22,885 bases of DNA from a virus: the IMG/VR virus record IMGVR_UViG_3300018084_000016, positions 1 to 22,885 of that record, one strand, 5' to 3'. Shown piece after piece: positions 1-20,319 of this stretch. The notes under the pieces are model-generated. The model saw only the letters and a list, made by a program, of their open reading frames with translations. It was not told the origin of the DNA and ran no database searches. A program made the position numbers and the translations under genes. How positions within the stretch are numbered: position 1 is the stretch's first letter; each line of letters starts with the position of its first letter.

Positions 1-3000
1 ATTCCCTCCTGCAATTTGTTCGATCAGCTTTTGAATCTCACTCTTACCGCGCTTCTTAGTAGGAGACAACCCGGCATCACGTAGCCCTTGCAGCATCTTA
101 TCGACCTGATCTTGAATTTCAAGAGAAGCGTAATATGCCTGCTGTTCTGGATCAGAGGTGACAACCGACTGACCACCAATCCAGGACGTGAGTGCTGCAT
201 TACCGGTGCGTTTCGCGGTAATAGAACCCGGGCCTGTAATCCCCGCCAATCTTGAGGCAGGAATCTGCCCTAGGAGGTAAGTATAGTAGGGGTTAGCCCC
301 TGGGCCTTCAATGCCCTGCCTCGACGTGGGGCCGACATTACTGCCCGGTATAAGGGACAACAGTTTAGCTCCGAAGGGAGTAACAGGAGCACGTGGATGT
401 CTCTCATCGGCGATGGGCTGTTTAGTGAAGAAGGACTTGTTTTGGTAGAGTTCGATTGGCGTCTTGATCGCCGGGGACAGCATAGCTGCCACTCTATCAA
501 ACGCTTCTCCCTTACCCTGAAAGGGAATCAGATCGGAGACGCCGAACTGAGGCATGTAATATTTGCCCTTTCCAATAGGAAAGCCCATGCCTGTTTCAAC
601 AAACTCAGGCACCGGAACACCTGACTCTTGCCCTGAGGCATAAGTTGATTCCTGTGCCAGCTTAGGAAAGGCCGAGTATCGTCCAGGCTCCTGAAATATC
701 TTCTTGACCTGATAAGGAATATTCTTTCTCGTCCAGGTATAGAAGGGGAAGATAGAATCCCTGAGCTTCTGCTCAAACGGAGTCAGATCGGAGTAGTCGA
801 AGTGGGCCAGCTTGACTCGCATAGCGGCTTCTCCTGCACTTTCCCCTAGAGCCTGACGACGCCACATATAGTGGGTCAGACGACCCCAATTCTCTGCCGA
901 CTTGTTGAAGTCCTGCATGACCTTGGTGGTAAGAGCAATGTATTGGTGATTCTTTCGGAGAGCACGGCTCGTGTTACCACCATACTTGAAGTATTTTTCA
1001 ACCCGCGCAATATCACCCGCGAACAATCCCGCCAAGATACCGTGGTCAGCAGCTTCTTGCACCCAACCAAAGGCAGCTGGATCTCCGTCCGCAGCCGATT
1101 TCATGGTGCGAGCAGCACGAGTTCCGTACTTACCAAGAGCGGCGGGGCCAATACCTGAAAGCCACATATTCCACATATCCGTCATGGTGTTGCGAATACG
1201 ATATCCTGGGTTAACAATGGTGACAAGTACCTTCCAAGCACCCTGCCACTTGGCGAATCCATGAACAAAGTTGTCTACCGTGGAATCATTCCCGCTTACA
1301 ATTCGTTCCAACCGGAGAAAACTATCTGCTGCATCCTGTGGGAACGCAAACGAGTGCCCATACTTATCAGTGGCCCTGGAATCAACTTGCAGATGAGGCT
1401 TCATTGCCGGGTTAGCTTTGCCCCGAACTGCCTTCTTATATTGTGCGTTGGCAGCTTTGAGCTCAACCTTGGCTTCCTTCAGAGCATCCTTAGCGGTGTT
1501 ATGGGCCAGCAAAGGCTCAGACACGGCCAATTTGTGGGCGTTCGTGCGAGGATTATCAATCGCCTTGAGGGCGTCATCCAACTGCTTTCGCAACTTGACC
1601 ATCTTGATCTGGTTCTTCGCCATCTGAGGGGTGGTAACCTTGGCAGCCTTCACCTTGCGAAGTTGGGCCTCAAGTGCCTTCAACCTGTCCCTCTTAATCA
1701 TGGTGGAAACAAAGGGGGTTCCATCGGCGGTACGCATTTTAACAGGAGCGTGCTTTAGATCAGGGTGGGCTTTCTTAGCTTCATCCCACAACCTAGTGGC
1801 TATCCCTTGGCGATAATGCCGGGGATTGACCACTAGCCCCTGAACTTCCCATCCCTTGCCTTTTTTGACAATCAGGATATGACCAAGTTCGTCGCCCTTG
1901 TTCTTCAAATTGAACTGCTTTGCAGCACCTTTAGCTGTGGTTTGGACGCTAACTCTGCCGGACACAACCTTGTCTGCTGGAACTTCTTTACGCAGTTTTG
2001 CGATTTGACCTTCTAGCTTCTTAACGGCCGTTGCTTTCGCACCTGTGCGTAGTTTGGTGGTAGTGGCTGCATAGCCCTTTTCCGCCACCTTCTGAGCATT
2101 AAGGAGTTCATTTTTTATCTTCTGAACAGCCTTATCGTAATCCCCTTCTGCATGAGCGGCAGCACGAATGGCGGCGTCATGCTTAGCAAGAGCCGCTTCT
2201 GTCCGTTTCACACCAAGAGCTACAGACTTCTCATTAACAAGCCGGGTAGGCACGCCGATGCTAGCCTTCAGGGTGTTGATAAGAGCCATATCCGCCTGAC
2301 GCTCAGCCCCCGCCCTAGAGCGGTGAGCCAACAGCCTAAATGGATTGGTCTCAATATTCGTCGGGAGAGCTCCGGACTTCACTAGCTCCTTGATTTGAAG
2401 GATGGAGAGGGCACCTGTTCTACCCTTCTGGAAGCCAGCCTCCGTCAATAGACCTCGCTGAGAGATAGTGGGAATAGCGGTTTCACCATCTTTAAGAAGG
2501 ATATGCGGAACGTACATCCGCCCATGCTCCCCGAAGTTCTCCACAGCTACGCCCGCAGCCCGGTCGAACTTGTACATAGATTCGGTAGCCTCAAAGTAAC
2601 GCCGAATGGCGTCTTCCTGGGAGGCATCCAACATCCCTCGCTTCTTTAGCAAGCTGATGTATCGCTCATTAAGACGAAATCCGCCTGTCTTGATGGGCAC
2701 AACTGCTTTCCATGCATTCCCCTTGGCGGTCTTGAGGGGCTGTTCCATGTGATGCAGCCCTTGTAGGAAGTGGTCAACATCCATTGTCTCGTCAACGCCG
2801 TTAAGGATTTTCCCGATCAACTGTCGCTGCATGACCGCGTTCTGCTCAGCAACATGCTGGCGAGCGACCTGTCCTGAGCGAACAATGGGATTCTTCCAAT
2901 CAGGGATGAAACCCTTACCCAGCCGGTCAGATAGTTGGCTGATAACAGGGATACCTGCACGAGAAATACGTTGTCCTGGACGTGCTAGAGCAGGAGTGAG

Positions 3001-3963
3001 GGGTACCTTAATGTGATGCTTGCGGGTACCATACTTGAGATAGATTTTACGATAGTCGAATTCCAAGGCTTCTTTATGAGCAAGAGAAGTGGCAATGGCC
3101 TCTTCTGACTTAGCCGCGATAGCCTCTTCATGGGTTAGTCCCATGATCGGGCGAGACCTGTTAGCTTTGTTCAACTGTAGAAGTGCATGGCGAGACGCAA
3201 ACTTTTTTCCTCCCGCCTTCAGCAACTCCTCAGTAACCTCGTCAGTTGCACCCTTTAGCGCCTTCTGTCCTGCCTCTTCGGCAGCCTTCTTAAGTAGTTT
3301 AGGGGTAACAGACCTAGCGCCTGCCTTCGCAGCCATATAGCCCGCCGTTGCGCCTCCACCACTGGGTACAGAGGCACCGAGGGATAGAAGCATAAGAGGA
3401 TCGGTAACAATATCGAGACCGAAACCCGTAGCTCCTCTAATCTTACGATGTCCCTTAAGTACGCCATGTTCGCCAAGAACTTCACCGAAGCCCTGGCGCT
3501 CTTTGCCTGTGAAACCACGCTTTGCTGCTTCACCAATATCCTTGATTTCACCAAGTCCGGGTGCGTTGCCCTTCCGAGCCTTATCTCGAATATCCCATGC
3601 TTCGTTAACGGAGGCAGTAACGGCCCACGAGGGGCGCATTAGCTTGTCCATTGCCCAAGTGGCACCACCAAGAGCTCCCTTGCCAACACCCTTCAGCTTA
3701 TCACCGAAGGATTGGTGCCCCTGGGACTTAAAAGCAGCTAGAGTAGTTGCCGTCTGTCGTGGAGTAAACCCAGCTGAAGCAAGAGCAATCGCCTTCTGCT
3801 CCTCTGGGATATTAGACCGAAGCATGGCAAGGATAGCCGCTTTATTAATTGACTTCTTTTTCTTGGCCTTGGGCTTGGGAGGCTTATAGGTAGGAGTCGT
3901 CAGCCCACCGAAACCGGAGCCAGACGAACTAGGGCCTAGACCTCCGAACGGGTTAGCTGCCAT
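1..3963 (-). CDS. Very large internal virion (ejection-type) protein with embedded GNAT-like domain; 3' end outside window
   Basis: An uninterrupted frame of 1321 codons starts at ATG 3963 behind AGGAGGAG and has no stop before the window edge. The N-terminus is Gly/Ser-rich and then very basic (KPPKPKAKKKK, about residues 30-40). A hydrophobic Gly/Ala-rich stretch with GLDIVTDPLMLLSLGA follows near 160-180. Long charged helices lie at about 580-660 and 755-850. Between them, about 662-755, is a GNAT acetyltransferase-like segment with VVNPRHYRQGIATRLW (R-x-x-G-I-A, the acetyl-CoA pyrophosphate-loop type). Near 1070 is FPFYTWTRKNIPYQ, a motif I associate with giant phage virion proteins. It is the last of three successive Gln/Ala-rich virion-type genes, resembling the gp14-gp15-gp16 arrangement of T7, where gp16 is about 1318 residues. 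The ejection role is inferred from size and position. I saw no lysozyme or transglycosylase signature. Confidence 0.8.
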   Translation of the reverse strand, partial: MAANPFGGLGPSSSGSGFGGLTTPTYKPPKPKAKKKKSINKAAILAMLRSNIPEEQKAIALASAGFTPRQTATTLAAFKSQGHQSFGDKLKGVGKGALGGATWAMDKLMRPSWAVTASVNEAWDIRDKARKGNAPGLGEIKDIGEAAKRGFTGKERQGFGEVLGEHGVLKGHRKIRGATGFGLDIVTDPLMLLSLGASVPSGGGATAGYMAAKAGARSVTPKLLKKAAEEAGQKALKGATDEVTEELLKAGGKKFASRHALLQLNKANRSRPIMGLTHEEAIAAKSEEAIATSLAHKEALEFDYRKIYLKYGTRKHHIKVPLTPALARPGQRISRAGIPVISQLSDRLGKGFIPDWKNPIVRSGQVARQHVAEQNAVMQRQLIGKILNGVDETMDVDHFLQGLHHMEQPLKTAKGNAWKAVVPIKTGGFRLNERYISLLKKRGMLDASQEDAIRRYFEATESMYKFDRAAGVAVENFGEHGRMYVPHILLKDGETAIPTISQRGLLTEAGFQKGRTGALSILQIKELVKSGALPTNIETNPFRLLAHRSRAGAERQADMALINTLKASIGVPTRLVNEKSVALGVKRTEAALAKHDAAIRAAAHAEGDYDKAVQKIKNELLNAQKVAEKGYAATTTKLRTGAKATAVKKLEGQIAKLRKEVPADKVVSGRVSVQTTAKGAAKQFNLKNKGDELGHILIVKKGKGWEVQGLVVNPRHYRQGIATRLWDEAKKAHPDLKHAPVKMRTADGTPFVSTMIKRDRLKALEAQLRKVKAAKVTTPQMAKNQIKMVKLRKQLDDALKAIDNPRTNAHKLAVSEPLLAHNTAKDALKEAKVELKAANAQYKKAVRGKANPAMKPHLQVDSRATDKYGHSFAFPQDAADSFLRLERIVSGNDSTVDNFVHGFAKWQGAWKVLVTIVNPGYRIRNTMTDMWNMWLSGIGPAALGKYGTRAARTMKSAADGDPAAFGWVQEAADHGILAGLFAGDIARVEKYFKYGGNTSRALRKNHQYIALTTKVMQDFNKSAENWGRLTHYMWRRQALGESAGEAAMRVKLAHFDYSDLTPFEQKLRDSIFPFYTWTRKNIPYQVKKIFQEPGRYSAFPKLAQESTYASGQESGVPVPEFVETGMGFPIGKGKYYMPQFGVSDLIPFQGKGEAFDRVAAMLSPAIKTPIELYQNKSFFTKQPIADERHPRAPVTPFGAKLLSLIPGSNVGPTSRQGIEGPGANPYYTYLLGQIPASRLAGITGPGSITAKRTGNAALTSWIGGQSVVTSDPEQQAYYASLEIQDQVDKMLQGLRDAGLSPTKKRGKSEIQKLIEQIAGGN

Positions 3964-3971
3964 TACTCCTC

Positions 3972-5138
3972 CTATTTATGCCCATATTTAGGCTTTATAA
4001 CTCCCGGCCCTTTACCGGCCGGATCGAAGATTAGTTGCCCCGCCTTATTTAGCCGCCACTTAGTCCATTGTTTGTGAGCATGACTTAGCCGGAGAATCTG
4101 TGCAAAGGCATTCTTAACAGCCTCTATAGCACGAGGATCATTTGCAAGATTCATCTGAGCAAGAGCGGTCATTGCATTTTGAAGTGCAATCTTGGGACTA
4201 ATACCAAAGGTACTACGAGGACTCAAAGCCCCACTAAAGGCTGCATTTCCGATGTTGCTTTTGGTTGCTGGATCGTTCCAATCTACACCATTTGGACTGT
4301 TAGCAATTTTCCGTAGCTCAATATTGGACTTCTTGAGGGCCAACTTCTGAGCTTTGAGGCTCATATTGCCTTGTTGAATCTGTTGACCACCTTGAACAAT
4401 ATCCTGTTGACCCTTAGTGATGTCCTGCTGTCCAAGGATCTGAGCCTGCTTTAGTGCAGCCTGACCGGTCTGATACTGAAGCACATCCTGTTTGCGACCC
4501 CAAGCCATAGTCATAGCGTCCATCAGATTCTTCTGATAAGCCGCTGCCTTCTCGCGTTGAACGTCCCTCAGGTTTCCCTGAAGTTCATTTTGCTGAGAAT
4601 TGAATTCACCTGAAGCCCTGCGTCTAGCATCGAGCGACTGTGCGCCAAGAATAGGAGCCATACGGGCATCAAACGCCTTATCAGAGGCTCCGAGCCCGGT
4701 AAGCATATCTATTCCTGCCTGACCGTAAGAAGCCCCCTCAACGCCTCCTGCACCACCGAACAGGTCATTGATGTTCCCCTGCCCCTGCTGAGCCTGAGCA
4801 ATACCCTGATCCCATGCTGCGGTAGCCTGCGAGGCACCATAAGCTCGCTGATCTTCAATCTGAGCAGCCCAGCCCTGAAGATCCTTCAGAGCCTCGTCCT
4901 CTTGTGCCTGACTATTGGCAATCTGCCGCTGAACCTCAGAAATGTCGGTACCATACGCCAGATCCGTCATCGTCTGTGCCAATGTCTTCGGATCAAATCC
5001 AATGCCGGAAGGTTTCTTAGGCCCCTTACCCACCTTAGGCCCCTTACCCGCCTTAGGGTTCTTGATAACAACCTTCTTTGTCAAAGGGGTACCACTTTCA
5101 CGTAGCGGTCTACCCGTCTTTGGGTCAACCCCTCTCAT
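3972..5138 (-). CDS. Probable internal virion protein, Gln/Ala-rich (388 aa)
   Basis: The frame begins at ATG 5138, overlapping the stop of the upstream gene by one base (TAATG), and ends 8 nt before the giant gene. The N-terminus carries RGVDPKTGRPLRESG followed by a Lys/Gly/Pro-rich linker with two near-identical GKGPK units. The middle is rich in Gln, Ala and Asp and predicted helical by eye, with short repeats such as GQQDITKGQQDIVQGGQQ. A small basic tail with Lys, Gly and Pro closes the protein. There is no signal peptide, membrane segment or catalytic motif. Composition and position, second in a trio between the tail proteins and the giant protein, fit an internal core or ejection protein (compare T7 gp15 or P22 gp20), but this is inference from context rather than a family match. 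Confidence 0.65.
   Translation of the reverse strand: MRGVDPKTGRPLRESGTPLTKKVVIKNPKAGKGPKVGKGPKKPSGIGFDPKTLAQTMTDLAYGTDISEVQRQIANSQAQEDEALKDLQGWAAQIEDQRAYGASQATAAWDQGIAQAQQGQGNINDLFGGAGGVEGASYGQAGIDMLTGLGASDKAFDARMAPILGAQSLDARRRASGEFNSQQNELQGNLRDVQREKAAAYQKNLMDAMTMAWGRKQDVLQYQTGQAALKQAQILGQQDITKGQQDIVQGGQQIQQGNMSLKAQKLALKKSNIELRKIANSPNGVDWNDPATKSNIGNAAFSGALSPRSTFGISPKIALQNAMTALAQMNLANDPRAIEAVKNAFAQILRLSHAHKQWTKWRLNKAGQLIFDPAGKGPGVIKPKYGHK
5016..5057 (-). repeat. 18-nt tandem repeat in coding sequence (GKGPK linker)
   Basis: Two adjacent 18-base units (5016-5033 and 5034-5051) differ at a single base and are followed by a six-base partial third copy. They encode consecutive GKGPK-type units in the N-terminal basic linker of the 388-residue protein. 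Near identity at the DNA level suggests recent slippage duplication. Confidence 0.75.
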
Positions 5139-6636: not shown

Positions 6637-6921
6637 TTAACTCGCTTTATAGTATGGAATTACGAATGGCGCACCTGTGTAATCAAGGATACGAATATAT
6701 CCCGATGGTGTGGCCGGAGGTGCTGTAGCTGAACCAGCGGCTCCTACGCTGAGTTGTGCTTGAGAGAACTGAACCTGGTCACCAAATATATGTTTCACAT
6801 TGACCGATAGTTCATCACACACCAACGTAGGAATCCGCGAAGGAGGAGTTTCCTCTAGCGCGTTCTGTAGGAAGCGAACCAACCGTTCTACAGTCCACTC
6901 GCCAATTGTTTCTTCTGCCAT
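6637..6921 (-). CDS. Small tail-associated structural protein (94 aa)
   Basis: I place the start at ATG 6921, which overlaps the stop of the nozzle-like gene by one base (TAATG). The frame stays open upstream to 7005, but that part lies over the end of the previous gene. The N-terminal half is helical and charged (EWTVERLVRFLQNALEE). The C-terminal half has LSVGAAGSATAPPATPSGYI and ends with a short beta segment and PYYKAS. GAAG...ALPATP...GY...PYY is a pattern I have seen at the C-termini of small phage tail and head-fibre proteins, although no activity is attached to it. Lying between nozzle and fibre genes, it may be a fibre adaptor. That role is a guess from context. Confidence 0.65.
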   Translation of the reverse strand: MAEETIGEWTVERLVRFLQNALEETPPSRIPTLVCDELSVNVKHIFGDQVQFSQAQLSVGAAGSATAPPATPSGYIRILDYTGAPFVIPYYKAS

Positions 6922-9566
6922 TAGATTCTCCCGAGTCTCTGCCACTTGTAGGCAATCTGGAATGGCCCTAGATGTGCTCTTGTAACCGCCGGGGAGTTTT
7001 GCCACAGTCGGAAACTGAGCATCTGTGAGCGTTTAAGGAACTTGATCCGCTTTGGCTTAAAGTTTGCCAGCGTTAGAGTTTCCCAAGTGGGGAACAGTAG
7101 TGCCAAGTTGTCCCAGGTACCCACCAATACAACCAATTGATCCCAGGTGTACACCGTCGTTGGATAGGCGGCTGTGGCCGTTTTACCAATGCTTTGTAGT
7201 CCGGGAACGGTGTCAATCCTAAGTGTATCTCCCTGTGAGATATACGTTAGGGAAAGTTGCTTGAACAACTTTTTGTGCATTGAGTCGCCCTCGGTGAATT
7301 TCTTACTTTCAACGTAGAAGTCTGGCCCACAGGTGAGTACCTGTGCGTAGGCGACCAGAGGCCCATCGGCGGTACTTACTGCTCCGAAGGGATCTGCCAA
7401 TCCGCCTGCGTAGGTATCTGTGTTGAAGTTGAGTCCAAGAGCGGTAGCTCCTTTGTAGAAGTTGACCAGTCCACTGGTTTCAACGTGGTTGCCGATCCAG
7501 TAATCACCAGGGGCAAGCTCCACCGCTGTAGTGAAGGTATAGTCCCTAAAAGCGGGGCCGTCTGCTTGGTTAAGGGCAACCACACTAGTAGTCCCGAGAA
7601 GTGCAGTAGGAACCCCTGCAACATCGGAATATATGCCTGCTCGGACGTTGCAGGCAGTTGAACCCCCACCTTGTCCCACAGAATAAATTGCAATCTTGTA
7701 GATAGCAGCCCTCGTTGGGACAGTAATCTTGGAGAAGTATTTGGTGTCAGCGGCCCCTGCAAAAGTAGTTGCTGTTCCAAGAGAAGTCACTCCATATCGG
7801 TAAATTCCCGCACTTGCACCAAGGTCACAAAGAACGGAATCATTGTCGTCTACATCGAACAGATCAAACCCTTGGCATATTACTGCCTTGGTGTTATCGT
7901 TCACGATGTAAAGATTTTGCTTGCCGGTATCAGCAGGGGTCTCCGTATAACCTCGGAAGGCCATATTGGTGAAGATTGAAAACGCCCTGGTCTCCAAGTT
8001 AATTACATAGGTCAGTGACGTAGGAGTAAAGGATAGAGTTCCTTTTTGAACACCCACATTCGGATTGAGATTCTCAATGTGGAGCAAGTAATGTCCACGA
8101 ACCACCATACCCCACAAACGATAAGAAGCAGGGTTCATGTTGCGAACCGCGTTGCGGTAATAATCACCTAGTTTTTCGGCGGAGAGGTTGGAGACTGTGA
8201 TCCCGTCGTAAAAGTAAATACCGTCCACCCCTGCCCAGATAACGCCACCGCCATAAGGCTGTGCGGACATACCAGATAGGGTTCCGTCGTCCTGGATTTT
8301 CTTGATTGAGAAAGTCGTCGCCGTGGAACCGGTGATTGCATAGGTCTCGTTCTCCTTGATGACAATTAGCCCGTTATAGGCCGGAATAAGCGCCTTAATG
8401 GGTGTATCTGTCCCTACGGACGAGGATACATCAAAGAAGTCCCCATCGTAGGTACTGAGATCGAGGCCCTCGGGATCCCCTGGATCGGAGAACCATACAC
8501 GCGAAGTACGAGTAAGGGCGCGACCGTTATTAGCATACCACTGACGCCCTGCATAGAAAGCACTGAGGAATCCCACTTTGTTATCTGAACCCATTGTGCT
8601 AAGTGTCCAATCACCATCACCCCTGAGCGCAACAAACTTCTCGTTGTTCAGAGCAAGAGCGGAGTTGGCAGCCAGAGTAATGCTGATCTCATTAGTGACC
8701 GTGGTAACCTTGCCCACCCACGCCATATCGGAGGCGCGATAAATATTCCACGTTCCTGTTGCCATTGACTGGGAAACAAACTTGGTGTTCGCTCCTGTAA
8801 CAGTGGTGGTAGATGTGGCGGTAGTAATCCGACCCTTAACGACCTTGTACTGAAAACCTCTAACGGAGGTAGCAGTATAGACTTGGCCGGTACTGGTGTA
8901 GTTCGCAACGTCTAGGAGGGTGATAGAGGTATCACTATCCACAGACTTGACTACTCCAATCAACGTCTGAGTAAAGTTTCCTCTACTTGCATCAGAGGTA
9001 TTACCAAAGATGTACATGCCGGAAGAAACATTTGCCAACCAGGAGGTGCCAGTTCCAGTAAGCGTTCTAGAACCAAGGGTCATAGCAAGAGTACCCGTGG
9101 TGTAGTTTGCTTTGTTCCCGCCCCGCCAGAATCCTAGTGTTTGGGTAGGTGAAGCGGAGTTGTATTGCGAAGACGTGCCAAGGGTAGCACCGCCAAGAAG
9201 AGTTGGCTTAGCATCAACAATATAGTAAGGCGATTGAGGCAGAAACCCGTTCCAGGTAAATGCTGTAGCGGTTGAAAAATCATCCGATAGCATCTGAAAT
9301 TGTCCCGTTGCATTGTCTCCCACGAACACACCAACTCGATATCCACCTGCCGGGGTGATTGTGCCAATAATTCCACAGCCCTTTTTAGCGAAGGTGGGGA
9401 AACCGGATGCACCCCTTACAGGCCCTCTACGCCGAACTAGTCCGGGATAATCAAGCAGAGCATCTTGTAGATATCTTGCTTCACCATCTGAGAGTGTGTG
9501 AGCAGGCTGTGCTAGATTCATACCCTCTGGGAGGCCATCGAACGTCTGTGCTTCCAACGCAGCCAT
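6921..9566 (-). CDS. Nozzle-like tail protein (tail tubular B / P22 gp10 type) with inserted beta domains (881 aa)
   Basis: ATG 9566 lies behind AAGGAGG, whereas a TTG at 9569 would leave only one base of spacing, so ATG is chosen. The body has propeller-like blades: SRVWFSDPGDPEGLDL (about 355-370), then FFDV, KALIPAYNGLIVIKENETYAI (391-411), IKKIQDDGTLSG and VIWAGVDGIYFYDG (442-455). This style of repeated beta structure is seen in podovirus nozzle proteins that close the tail below the adaptor. Residues about 157-225 and 245-300 are two related beta modules (TLTGTGTSWLANV and TTVTGANTKFVSQ). Residues about 590-745 form an inserted beta-sandwich-like segment (VRAGIYSDVAGVPTALLG, ELAPGDYWIG) before the conserved-looking VESKKFTEG end. 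It directly follows the adaptor gene, the expected order. The exact family was not searched. Confidence 0.8.
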   Translation of the reverse strand: MAALEAQTFDGLPEGMNLAQPAHTLSDGEARYLQDALLDYPGLVRRRGPVRGASGFPTFAKKGCGIIGTITPAGGYRVGVFVGDNATGQFQMLSDDFSTATAFTWNGFLPQSPYYIVDAKPTLLGGATLGTSSQYNSASPTQTLGFWRGGNKANYTTGTLAMTLGSRTLTGTGTSWLANVSSGMYIFGNTSDASRGNFTQTLIGVVKSVDSDTSITLLDVANYTSTGQVYTATSVRGFQYKVVKGRITTATSTTTVTGANTKFVSQSMATGTWNIYRASDMAWVGKVTTVTNEISITLAANSALALNNEKFVALRGDGDWTLSTMGSDNKVGFLSAFYAGRQWYANNGRALTRTSRVWFSDPGDPEGLDLSTYDGDFFDVSSSVGTDTPIKALIPAYNGLIVIKENETYAITGSTATTFSIKKIQDDGTLSGMSAQPYGGGVIWAGVDGIYFYDGITVSNLSAEKLGDYYRNAVRNMNPASYRLWGMVVRGHYLLHIENLNPNVGVQKGTLSFTPTSLTYVINLETRAFSIFTNMAFRGYTETPADTGKQNLYIVNDNTKAVICQGFDLFDVDDNDSVLCDLGASAGIYRYGVTSLGTATTFAGAADTKYFSKITVPTRAAIYKIAIYSVGQGGGSTACNVRAGIYSDVAGVPTALLGTTSVVALNQADGPAFRDYTFTTAVELAPGDYWIGNHVETSGLVNFYKGATALGLNFNTDTYAGGLADPFGAVSTADGPLVAYAQVLTCGPDFYVESKKFTEGDSMHKKLFKQLSLTYISQGDTLRIDTVPGLQSIGKTATAAYPTTVYTWDQLVVLVGTWDNLALLFPTWETLTLANFKPKRIKFLKRSQMLSFRLWQNSPAVTRAHLGPFQIAYKWQRLGRI

Positions 9567-9575
9567 CAAGCCTCC

Positions 9576-10217
9576 TTAGTAGTCGTAGATATCGTCCTCG
9601 TCAATGACGAAGATTTGGTCAGATCGTTGATACTGTCTGCGGAACAAATCCTCATGCATCTGCTGAATCTTGTTCTCGAAGTCAATCTGAAACATGTTCC
9701 CGTTTTCCGGATCATCTTCCATCTTGTACAAACGAAAGAGCGCACCAAGAACAATAGCCTGGTGATGTCTCGCAGGTAGAAGGATGGACGTTGATACATC
9801 ATTTTCGGTCAATTCCACCTGGGTAGCGATGTAATCAAGCTGAAACCGACCTGTCGAAACCGGGGGTACCGGATAGAGTCGGATCTGTCCCGCCACAAAA
9901 TAATAACTGGCAGGATCAGAGACCAGAGAAATCTGGTTTCCATAGCGATCTCGAATTGTGGACAACCTCTCGGGCCAGAGAGAGACCCCGTTTGTAAGGT
10001 CAAATAGCCAAAGAGCCGTCTTGAAGTCGGTGGGCATATTTGTAGGAGCAGGTGAAGCTCCGTCAAAGTTGAGGGCCACCGTCTTCTCCAAAAAAGGCCA
10101 CGGTTCACGAGATTCAATATCCCAGATGGCATCGTTAATCTTTGCCAACTTACGTTCGGTGCTGGTGTCTTCAAACCCGTGATCCACCAATTCCGACAGA
10201 ATCTCTGAAACGTCCAT
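9576..10217 (-). CDS. Head-to-tail adaptor protein (T7 gp11 / P22 gp4-like) (213 aa)
   Basis: ATG 10217 overlaps the upstream stop by one base. The protein starts with a helix (DVSEILSELVDHGFED) followed by INDAIWDIESREPWPFLEKT, the WPFL-type segment characteristic of podovirus adaptor proteins. Then come NMPTDFKTALWLF, GQIRLYPVPPVSTG and LDYIATQ, and a helical C-terminal half with LLPARHHQAIVLGALFRLYK. About 200 residues is the normal size for this family, which forms a dodecameric ring below the portal and joins it to the nozzle. The neighbour downstream is the nozzle-like gene, the order found in T7-like and P22-like tails. The acidic tail DEDDIYDY is notable. I am fairly sure of the assignment. 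Confidence 0.82.
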   Translation of the reverse strand: MDVSEILSELVDHGFEDTSTERKLAKINDAIWDIESREPWPFLEKTVALNFDGASPAPTNMPTDFKTALWLFDLTNGVSLWPERLSTIRDRYGNQISLVSDPASYYFVAGQIRLYPVPPVSTGRFQLDYIATQVELTENDVSTSILLPARHHQAIVLGALFRLYKMEDDPENGNMFQIDFENKIQQMHEDLFRRQYQRSDQIFVIDEDDIYDY

Positions 10218-16784: not shown

Positions 16785-17115
16785 CAATCTCCTCCATGAG
16801 TGCTGTAGGATTCTCGGCAAGCTGCCTCAAATCGTTGAATAGAATGTCAATGCGGCGTTTGAGCCCCTGTAGGACTCTCTGTGCCTGCAATGTGTCATTC
16901 TCCGCTCGCTCGACGGTTGCTCTGTCAGCAAGGTCAAAGTGAACCAACATGGAGTTGATGCACTTCTCGCAGACGTATCGCCGTCCCTGTAGGTTAAAGG
17001 GATGTCCGTCGAAATAACGTTCGGTGTCGATGACCTTGGTACCGTGATCCGGTGTGGTCTCACACAGAAAACACAAATTTGGGCGCTGTAGGCGTCCACC
17101 TATTGTGAGCTTCAT
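16588..17115 (-). CDS. Zinc-ribbon protein with C-terminal low-complexity tail (175 aa)
   Basis: ATG 17115 overlaps the HNH stop as ATGA. Residues 15-18 (CFLC) and 49-52 (CEKC) form two Cys-x-x-Cys pairs about 34 residues apart, typical of a treble-clef or zinc-ribbon fold. A helical segment follows (ERAENDTLQAQRVLQGLKRR, about 69-90). From about residue 111 to the end the composition becomes Gly/Ser/Glu-rich (TPTGSGSGTVGEVARVE), and this is the stretch that overlaps the coiled-coil gene in another frame. The overlapped tail may therefore be a by-product of the second gene. Zinc-binding small proteins next to phage HNH and terminase genes are common, but the precise role is unknown. Nucleic-acid binding is a reasonable guess. 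Confidence 0.65.
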   Translation of the reverse strand: MKLTIGGRLQRPNLCFLCETTPDHGTKVIDTERYFDGHPFNLQGRRYVCEKCINSMLVHFDLADRATVERAENDTLQAQRVLQGLKRRIDILFNDLRQLAENPTALMEEIDVTPTGSGSGTVGEVARVEVDPGSIDGGAGEDLSSDAESGNPERGSGETAKTYSGASLTTSPYAQ

Positions 17116-17429
17116 AGCTCTATAACCTCCATGTGTCCATTTTCTGCTTTTCTATGGCAGTTCGCACAGAGAACCACGCACTTCTGAATCTCTGCGATCA
17201 GTCGTGCCAGATTCGCCCTCGGCGCTCTACCGATAGAAAAGAGCTTTTCAGACGGATCGACATGATGAAAGTCCATGCAGTATGTGGGGTGTTCTTCACC
17301 ACATGACTCACACGGCCTGTCTTTAAAGAAGTTGACGATTCTTCGCCAATCCTCACGATAAGCCGCATCCTTGGCCTGCTTAGACTCGAAGAACCCTTTA
17401 GGTTTGCGATTCTTCTTGTATGTCCTCAT
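17112..17429 (-). CDS. HNH endonuclease (105 aa)
   Basis: ATG 17429 overlaps the terminase stop by one base (TAATG). A GTG at 17435 is less likely. The N-terminus is very basic (KKNRKPKGFFESKQAKD). The HNH core shows CESC (a structural zinc pair), then MDFHHVDP with the catalytic His pair, and CVVLCANCHR, the second zinc pair plus the N/H residues of the motif. About 105 residues is typical for free-standing phage HNH proteins. HNH proteins next to the large terminase support packaging cleavage in several phages (HK97 gp74 is the known example). Its position immediately downstream suggests such a role, but a homing nuclease cannot be ruled out by sequence alone. The motif is intact. Confidence 0.85.
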   Translation of the reverse strand: MRTYKKNRKPKGFFESKQAKDAAYREDWRRIVNFFKDRPCESCGEEHPTYCMDFHHVDPSEKLFSIGRAPRANLARLIAEIQKCVVLCANCHRKAENGHMEVIEL

Positions 17430-18931
17430 TACCACTCGCTTCCTAAATGCTCGTCCATCGTGTGCAGATCCTTCCTCTTGCTGGCCGCTTTGGCTGCAAG
17501 TTCAACCCACATACTTGCAGTAGAGGCCGCTCCTTCGAGGATAGGGGCTTCATCTGGGCGTTTCTGACTTGGTAGAAGAACTCCGGCAATGCGAAGTGCC
17601 ATTTCTACTGAGTCCAAACAGTCGTCTTGGGGATTCTTCTTGAGGGAATCGTAACCAACCCACTCATTGATAAAATCCGACTGATCCCGACTAATCTTGA
17701 TTCTTCCTGTGCGAAAGTATGGAGTCATAGCCAGGATGCGTTCAAACTTCTTTCCCTTGGCCCATAGGGGGACAACGGGTGGCAGCCCTTCAAGTCGCTG
17801 AACCTGTTGAACAAGGGCTGCCTGGTACGCGGTTTTCTCAATACCAATCCCGTAGGGGCTATACTTCTGGAACCACTGATTAATTTTGTCTACCTGTTCC
17901 GGAAACGGAATACGACCTGCCCACTGGTCTACAAGATAGGCTTGCTTTCTGTCTTTTGTGACTCCAATTGCTGAGATAGCAAATCGGTCGGCTGTATCGG
18001 CAAGAGAAATTGCGGGATCGACAGCCACAAACATAGTGAGACCGGGGAATGAACCATCAAGACCACGGTATGCGTCCAATTCCGCAGCTTCGTAGTAATG
18101 TAGCCATTCACCTGACAACTCCTTTCCCGCCATAGCATCAAAAGAAGCCATGAACTCTTGCTTGAATTTGAAGGGGTGATACTCCTCTGCAAGGCGCTTC
18201 CACTCCGCTACGTCGTAGTAAGGACTGTCAATAGAAAAATACTCTACACGCCCGTGTGATGGGTTAGCCAACGCCTTGTCAGACCAGAAATGGTTGTAAA
18301 ACCAGTTCTTTCCGTCTGGGGTGGTAGCAGAAATGAACATGCCTAGGGTCTGGGTGAGCGACGGGGAACTAACGTCCCACGCCTCTTCATTCACAATGAA
18401 CGCAGCTTCATCCATCCACATGATGTCCACACCTGCACCTCTGAGCTTGGTGGGGTTGTCTGCGGTCTTAAACAGCAGGAATGATCCGTTGGCGAACTCG
18501 ATCCACTGGTGGCCTCGGTTCTCCTTATAGTCCACATCCTCCACCATACCGGCTGCCTGCAATACCTCGCGGATAGCCAACTTAGACCAGAGGCCCATCG
18601 TGTAGTCCTGGGCCATAACCCAGATCACTAGCGGTCTACGCGAGTTCGTACCATGGAGATCCTGGTGGAATACCTCGGGGTGAAGCGCGTAGAAGATTGT
18701 TTCCCAGGCTGCTGCTAGGGTTTTACCCCCTCGCCTGCCTGCAACAAGGTGCCGGAAGCGGCAAAGCCTGGTATTCTCTGGATTCGTGTTTGTGTGAAAC
18801 AGGAATTGCCAGTAATGCGGGTGGTAGCCGTGTTGGGCAAACCACAAAAACTTCTGGGGATATCGGGCCAGAAGGTCAACAACATCCCCATCAGAGAGGG
18901 TAATGCCGTCTCCCCGGTGGAAATCGGGCAT
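17429..18931 (-). CDS. terL: Terminase large subunit (500 aa)
   Basis: ATG 18931 is preceded by AAAGGAGGG. The packaging ATPase shows Walker A AGRRGGKT (64-71), a following WVMAQDYTMG, an LRGAGVD segment, Walker B VDIMWMDEA with catalytic E175, and the SATTP motif III (201-205). The nuclease domain shows FVAVDPA with D305, GIGIEKTAYQ with E365, and DDCLD (436-440) as the third acidic site. The ends are complete, with a normal length of 500 residues. It powers DNA translocation into the procapsid at the portal and cuts concatemers. The HNH gene overlaps its end, and no obvious small terminase gene precedes it, which is unusual. The family is certain. Confidence 0.96.
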   Translation of the reverse strand: MPDFHRGDGITLSDGDVVDLLARYPQKFLWFAQHGYHPHYWQFLFHTNTNPENTRLCRFRHLVAGRRGGKTLAAAWETIFYALHPEVFHQDLHGTNSRRPLVIWVMAQDYTMGLWSKLAIREVLQAAGMVEDVDYKENRGHQWIEFANGSFLLFKTADNPTKLRGAGVDIMWMDEAAFIVNEEAWDVSSPSLTQTLGMFISATTPDGKNWFYNHFWSDKALANPSHGRVEYFSIDSPYYDVAEWKRLAEEYHPFKFKQEFMASFDAMAGKELSGEWLHYYEAAELDAYRGLDGSFPGLTMFVAVDPAISLADTADRFAISAIGVTKDRKQAYLVDQWAGRIPFPEQVDKINQWFQKYSPYGIGIEKTAYQAALVQQVQRLEGLPPVVPLWAKGKKFERILAMTPYFRTGRIKISRDQSDFINEWVGYDSLKKNPQDDCLDSVEMALRIAGVLLPSQKRPDEAPILEGAASTASMWVELAAKAASKRKDLHTMDEHLGSEW

Positions 18932-19770: not shown

Positions 19771-20319
19771 TTAAGAATGGGACAGAATTACTGGTAGATA
19801 CTCGTCTCGCCAAGTTCCGGCTGGGCCTGCAATTGAAGGAACTTCGAGTTCCGCAAAGGCTATTTCAGCCTGTGCATTGGCATTAGGCACCTCAAACTCC
19901 GCCCATGAGATATCCGCACGTGTATCCGCTGTGGGAACCTCAAGTTCGGTAAATGAGACATCTGCCCGAGAATTAGCGGTAGGAACCTCCAACTCGGCCC
20001 AAGATATTTCACCTTGTGCGCTGAGGAGAGGAACCTCAAATTCAGCCCATGATATCTCCGCTTGAGCATTAAGAGTTGGAACCTCAAGTTCAGTCCAAGA
20101 TATTTCCGATTGGGCATTCGCCGTAGGTACCTCAAATTCAGACCAAGAAATCTCGGCTTGTGCATTGAGAAACGGTACCTCAAGTTCGGCCCAGGAGACT
20201 TCAGCCTGTGCATTTAGAAAAGGAATCTCAAATTCAGCCCAGGATATTTCCCCGTGGACATCAACTTTGAACCCGTGGGAGTATATTGGGTAAGAGTACC
20301 CACGCCCAAGACGGGCCAT
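19771..20319 (-). CDS. Protein made of nine 16-residue repeats (182 aa)
   Basis: ATG 20319 lies 3 nt after the previous stop. Residues 1-23 (MARLGRGYSYPIYSHGFKVD and a short linker) are followed by nine consecutive 16-residue units with consensus EISWAEFEVPTANAQA (residues 24-167), then a 15-residue tail GTWRDEYLPVILSHS. Each unit has one aromatic/acidic strand (xISWxEhEVP) and a variable PxxNAQ turn. The strand position after the first Glu alternates Phe and Leu in eight of nine copies, pointing to an ancestral 32-residue dimer. Regular acidic and hydrophobic spacing suggests a beta-solenoid or stacked fibre, but no family is recognised. A structural appendage of the virion is the most sensible inference from its neighbours. 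Confidence 0.75.
   Translation of the reverse strand: MARLGRGYSYPIYSHGFKVDVHGEISWAEFEIPFLNAQAEVSWAELEVPFLNAQAEISWSEFEVPTANAQSEISWTELEVPTLNAQAEISWAEFEVPLLSAQGEISWAELEVPTANSRADVSFTELEVPTADTRADISWAEFEVPNANAQAEIAFAELEVPSIAGPAGTWRDEYLPVILSHS
19819..20250 (-). repeat. Nine 48-nt coding repeats
   Basis: Nine in-frame tandem units of 48 nt encode the 16-residue repeats of the 182-residue protein. They differ at many silent positions but keep the ISWAE(F/L)EVP core, which indicates selection on the protein rather than fresh DNA slippage. There are no spacers, so this is not a CRISPR array. Confidence 0.85.

Follow-up and report, generated by a model that had tools for sequence, protein, structure and literature searches.

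The window examined here, a stretch of 22,885 bases that constitutes the record of an uncultured phage, raises the question why a giant virion-type protein should carry a segment resembling a GNAT acetyltransferase and what such a domain could do there. The initial annotation had described an open reading frame at the left edge of the window (1-3963, minus strand) with this segment inside it, and both were found as described. The gene is the same in an independent assembly (L002; 0 differences over 3963 bases), which extends it beyond the window edge by no more than the residues YGG and a stop codon and so brings the full length to 1324 residues. The gene belongs to a minus-strand podovirus-like structural module that comprises the large terminase, the portal, the major head protein and tail and internal-virion-type proteins. 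The features relevant to its genetic context are:

1..3963 (-), giant virion-type protein, 1321 of 1324 codons inside the window (open reading frame list, completed from L002)
634..1281 (-), conserved C-terminal core of this protein, residues 895-1110, common to a wide family of giant proteins (core profile)
3972..5138 (-), 388-residue protein directly upstream of the giant gene on the same strand, without PHROG or Pfam match
6921..9569 (-), 882-residue tail or internal virion protein of the podovirus-like structural module (phrog_511 and others)
9576..10217 (-), 213-residue tail protein (phrog_10775, phrog_2941)

Elsewhere in the window, a small gene for an HNH endonuclease directly follows the large terminase gene (17112-17435, minus strand), and a 182-residue protein (19771-20319, minus strand) consists of a unit of about 14 residues repeated in tandem, in variants of ISWAEFEVPTANAQAE. 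Near copies of one sequence are present at the C-terminus of the product of a 227-codon gene (RGIDPKTGRPLRESGATPVKKVV) and at the N-terminus of the 388-residue protein encoded next (RGVDPKTGRPLRESGTPLTKKVV). They straddle the overlapping stop/start junction around position 5138 (minus strand) and look as if they had arisen by local duplication.

The part of the giant protein that resembles GNAT enzymes was delimited by several independent approaches:

1708..1968 (-), mini-GNAT core, residues 666-752 (Pfam, independent HMM, AlphaFold2 model, Foldseek, VIA-align)

The Pfam family Acetyltransf_1 matches residues 622-788 with 22.4 bits (E=0.00015; curated cut-off 20.7), and the whole giant protein with 19.0 bits, just below that cut-off, a value that taken by itself would leave room for a chance resemblance. 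When named phages were searched with the domain by tblastn, no match was obtained at E 0.1 and only insignificant ones at E up to 10; two of these (Tonenili and Roseobacter phage CRP-902) fell in GNAT-like segments, and such weak matches led to short GNATs in actinophage proteins. The matches in JalFarm20 and Bromden lie antisense to annotated genes and were discarded. In an hhalign comparison the window domain aligns with a profile of five actinophage mini-GNATs over 59 columns (37% identity, P=8e-6), and the match takes in the C-terminal H-S/D-G pattern. A scan of viral contigs with the five-member profile yielded 18 loci; an HMM built from 14 of them, with the window left out, gives the giant protein 41.8 bits (E 1.1e-11), as compared with a best score of 9.6 bits for 2000 shuffled versions of the same protein. 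Searching viral contigs with the domain itself recovered the same virus only, and none of 597 pattern matches considered as cellular relatives was confirmed.

Structure prediction and comparison with solved GNATs, as proposed in the initial annotation, led to the same fold from two different alignments. A first AlphaFold2 model of residues 655-765, built on the mini-GNAT alignment (mean pLDDT 83.3, pTM 0.73), consists of four strands, the P-loop helix and a short strand, after which a last helix runs on into the stalk described below. The top Foldseek matches in the PDB are GNATs with a probability of 1.00, and nearly all matches listed are acetyltransferases or GNAT-family proteins; the modest E-values (best 1.4e-3) are what a domain of this small size would lead one to expect. 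With VIA-align, Z-scores up to 9.8 were reached, and RibT, RimI and PanZ are among the nearest solved structures. RibT from Bacillus subtilis (5xxs; Z 8.9, 87 aligned residues, rmsd 2.5) is the nearest of the small solved GNATs in sequence and one of the nearest in fold, but it is a free-standing cellular protein whereas the window GNAT is an insert. Since the mini-GNAT alignment could bias the first model, a second one comprising residues 532-916 was built from relatives of the giant protein alone, none of which contains a GNAT (pLDDT 80.7, pTM 0.48). RibT again came first in the fold search with this model; its low pTM implies that the way in which stalk and flanks are arranged as a whole deserves less trust than the local folds do. 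The unit of strand 4, P-loop and helix 3 that is central to the GNAT superfamily is present. A chance match is contradicted by the shuffle control, the profile-profile score and both fold searches, and we consider it scarcely credible. As judged by sequence profiles and predicted structure, residues 661-758 are a miniature GNAT domain.

Closely related giant proteins and the second model define how this domain is embedded:

1690..1983 (-), inserted segment, residues 661-758, absent from L003/L046 and L004/L047 (alignments, search gaps)
1984..2232 (-), outgoing stalk helix of 83 residues, 578-660 (AlphaFold2 model of residues 532-916)
1423..1689 (-), returning stalk helices, residues 751-847, given here as 759-847 (AlphaFold2 model; aligned in insert-free relatives)

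Whether relatives lack the insert had been put forward as a check, and two of them do: L003 (78% identical) and L004 (69%) match both flanks and skip residues from about 660 to 756. The domain is likewise missing from the stalk position in L048 and L049. Its absence from such close relatives makes it look like a swappable cargo module. The insert is not marked as foreign by base composition, its GC content (50.0%) not differing from that of the gene (52.0 +/- 2.0). The insert-free relatives also bear on the idea that the GNAT acts on phage proteins, acetylating the giant itself or its virion partners during assembly. As part of a structural protein the domain could meet acetyl-CoA in the producing cell, but close relatives with the same neighbouring genes do without it, and we regard a phage target as very improbable.

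In the second model the GNAT occupies about residues 670-750, preceded by the helix 578-660 and followed by the helices 751-847, which agrees with its earlier description as lying between two long charged helices and would place this in-frame insertion where an antiparallel coiled-coil stalk has its tip. Among 44 non-redundant family members, the distance between two conserved anchors is mostly 55-85 residues, as opposed to 210-341 residues in the clade of the window; it is also long in L108, L111 and L113. By this measure the stalk is a clade-level elaboration, confined to six members of a large phage family. In a more distant relative (L050, 38% identical) a different stretch of about 120 residues is found between the same two helices. 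It begins near residue 617 (KEVFDEKAFDD...LQLKITHSK), has no match in Pfam and gave only a weak one to PHROG 12725, which is annotated as of unknown function. The stalk tip has thus taken up at least two different inserts.

A PHROG search gave no match for the giant protein and a PDB sequence search nothing convincing through its core. Searching viral contigs with the core profile yielded 353 relatives, the best 80 of which were kept; the core contains an invariant PFY..RK..P, and complete members in the fetched DNA are 842 to 2291 residues long. Among cultured phages, matches were obtained in Microbacterium phage Shocker (gp37) and Cellulosimicrobium phage DS1. Within the window's clade, the neighbouring gene codes for NlpC/P60, for SLT with NlpC/P60, or for SLT with M15 domains. 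An SLT transglycosylase is fused to the family members L089 and L066, an ADP-ribosyltransferase (ART-PolyVal) domain is present in one member, and PHROG matches in the family include DNA methyltransferase, ParB-like nuclease and 'internal virion protein with endolysin domain'. L066 (4045-10917, plus strand), with its C-terminal SLT domain the 2291-residue member, furthermore shows a sub-cut-off match to gp82 of mycobacteriophage L5. In cellular genomes the core was found at eight loci, seven in metagenome-assembled genomes of varied groups and one on a Streptomyces contig, a mixture too diverse for a host to be named.

The giant protein shows features of a polyvalent protein, being a large multidomain protein encoded with virion genes in a family in which GNAT, ART and SLT domains vary, as well as two features of podovirus ejection proteins, a place after the tail genes and a link to wall hydrolases. 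T7-type ejection proteins such as gp16 pair with a transglycosylase or are fused to one; like the giant, they are large proteins whose genes close a podovirus structural module, but in the families searched they have no detectable sequence relation to it. The designation as an ejection-type protein fits this context of podovirus-like gene order and adjoining or fused wall hydrolases, and the same context together with the literature suggests that the giant is packaged and injected. On the other hand, 28 of the 44 relatives match PHROG 19395 ('tail fiber protein; host specificity'), which makes a location outside the cell conceivable: the giant would be a tail or host-contact component, and the GNAT a displayed binding domain. 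PHROG names are transferred annotations, however, and the mostly helical nature of the modelled part, the adjoining or fused wall hydrolases and the ART domain in one relative fit an ejected protein better. We consider the outside location improbable.

Whether a delivered GNAT could be an enzyme depends on its active site, for which two features were mapped:

1798..1815 (-), acetyl-CoA loop Y717-R-Q-G-I-A722, which departs from (Q/R)xxGx(G/A) (HMM column comparison)
1846..1848 (-), Glu706 in strand 4, a position occupied by Glu in 7 of 14 relatives (window-free HMM alignment column)

The R-x-x-G-x-A motif of the initial annotation turned out to be out of register, the actual site being Y-R-Q-G-I-A. 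In N713-P-R-H-Y-R-Q-G-I-A722 the arginines lie five and two residues, not three, before the glycine. The residue three before Gly720 is Tyr717, at a position occupied by R or Q in all 14 relatives, which renders catalysis uncertain and weakens the case for a modifying enzyme. Furthermore, helices 1-2 and strands 6-7 of the canonical GNAT order are absent from the model. The loss of these substrate-side elements is equally a point against an enzyme, yet the open face that it leaves would suit a protein surface better than a small-molecule pocket. Both observations favor the view that the fold serves a non-enzymatic role, as a degenerate GNAT that binds acyl-CoA, DNA or a host protein, or that does no more than stabilise the stalk tip or act as a spacer there. 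PanZ, one of the fold matches, is a GNAT acting as a binding co-factor, and the different insert at the same tip in L050 indicates that the position tolerates unrelated domains. Against such a role, the G-x-A part of the loop (Gly720 and Ala722) and Glu706 are retained; the latter, also by its spacing to the end of strand 4, is presumably in register with Glu173, the general base of GCN5. Moreover, other mini-GNATs are similarly short, so that the missing elements are not a decay specific to the window copy. On account of the non-consensus Tyr717 the non-enzymatic role stays a serious rival, tentative as we hold it, and acetyltransferase activity as read from the sequence is possible rather than assured.

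GNATs in phage structural contexts have precedents. Iyer et al. (2017) described two GNAT families in injected polyvalent phage proteins and predicted that they modify proteins; the second family is exemplified by a stand-alone GNAT encoded among late structural genes, gp113 of Mycobacterium phage Alice (PMC5512222). This proposal was repeated in a 2021 survey of jumbo phages, which drew a comparison with Rac of phiKMV-like phages (PMC7824862). The window-free HMM assigns 37.2 bits to Alice gp113, as compared with 41.8 for the window protein. Both are small RimI-like GNATs among phage structural genes for which action on proteins after injection is predicted; gp113, however, stands alone whereas the window GNAT is inserted in the stalk of a giant and has Tyr as first P-loop residue.

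Mini-GNATs were also encountered in phage ParB-nuclease proteins, in structural proteins and in a polyvalent protein with LPD38 and ART domains (L033). Tonenili gp97, Blubba gp73, Phabba gp84 and gp70 of Rhodococcus phage E3 have the same short architecture as the window domain, and the actinophage mini-GNATs share with it the pattern GHL...E...VHPD.rrqGIA...HS...dG.aw. They differ from it in residing in ParB-nuclease or other structural proteins without this giant core and in keeping R or Q in the loop. L033, with 1638 residues and ART-PolyVal, GNAT and LPD38 domains, is a giant with a mini-GNAT like that of the window, although the GNAT lies elsewhere in the chain. Its residues 1091-1289 align weakly to the giant core (hhalign score 39-40, maximum of 30 shuffles 19.6). 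LPD38 is present in L033; neither a Pfam scan nor a direct search with the family (PF18857) gave a match in the window's giant or its relatives. Membership of the giant in LPD38 was rejected, as hhalign against the LPD38 region of L033 gave a null result and the weak core match falls immediately before that domain.

Two further viral proteins came to light in the course of these comparisons. One of 1042 residues (L031, 2127-5255, plus strand) contains at least three GNAT stretches and weak Arr-type ADP-ribosyltransferase and SprT-like matches, and an open reading frame of at least 2265 codons (L032, 3-6800, plus strand) has a mini-GNAT near residue 1666.

Taken together, the GNAT is most likely a delivered protein-modifying module. 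In full, the reading that a mini-GNAT inserted at the stalk tip of a podovirus-type virion protein of the polyvalent or ejection kind is delivered to modify a host protein is one in which we place about even confidence; a point against it is that, among the members sampled from the best 80 of the 353 relatives, only the virus of the window has a mini-GNAT. The giant protein would be packaged and, together with a wall hydrolase, would accompany the DNA into the cell. Presented there by the stalk, the GNAT may acetylate an amino group of some host protein at an early stage of infection, a target proposed by analogy with other polyvalent GNATs.

GNATs carried by injected polyvalent proteins had been predicted before (PMC5512222), which limits the surprise. 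What is new is the location of this one, on the tip of a stalk peculiar to its clade, together with the alternative insert in L050. It is conceivable, though we regard it as rather doubtful, that the stalk evolved as an exchangeable mount carrying a GNAT, another domain or nothing at its tip, by which effectors brought in at infection could be swapped among related phages with the ejection core left untouched. Proteins that a phage introduces along with its DNA belong to its earliest tools of infection, and characterised examples of injected enzymes are few. A family whose core is fixed while its stalk tip varies provides natural pairs with and without the domain (78% and 69% identical), by which the role of a delivered domain becomes testable.
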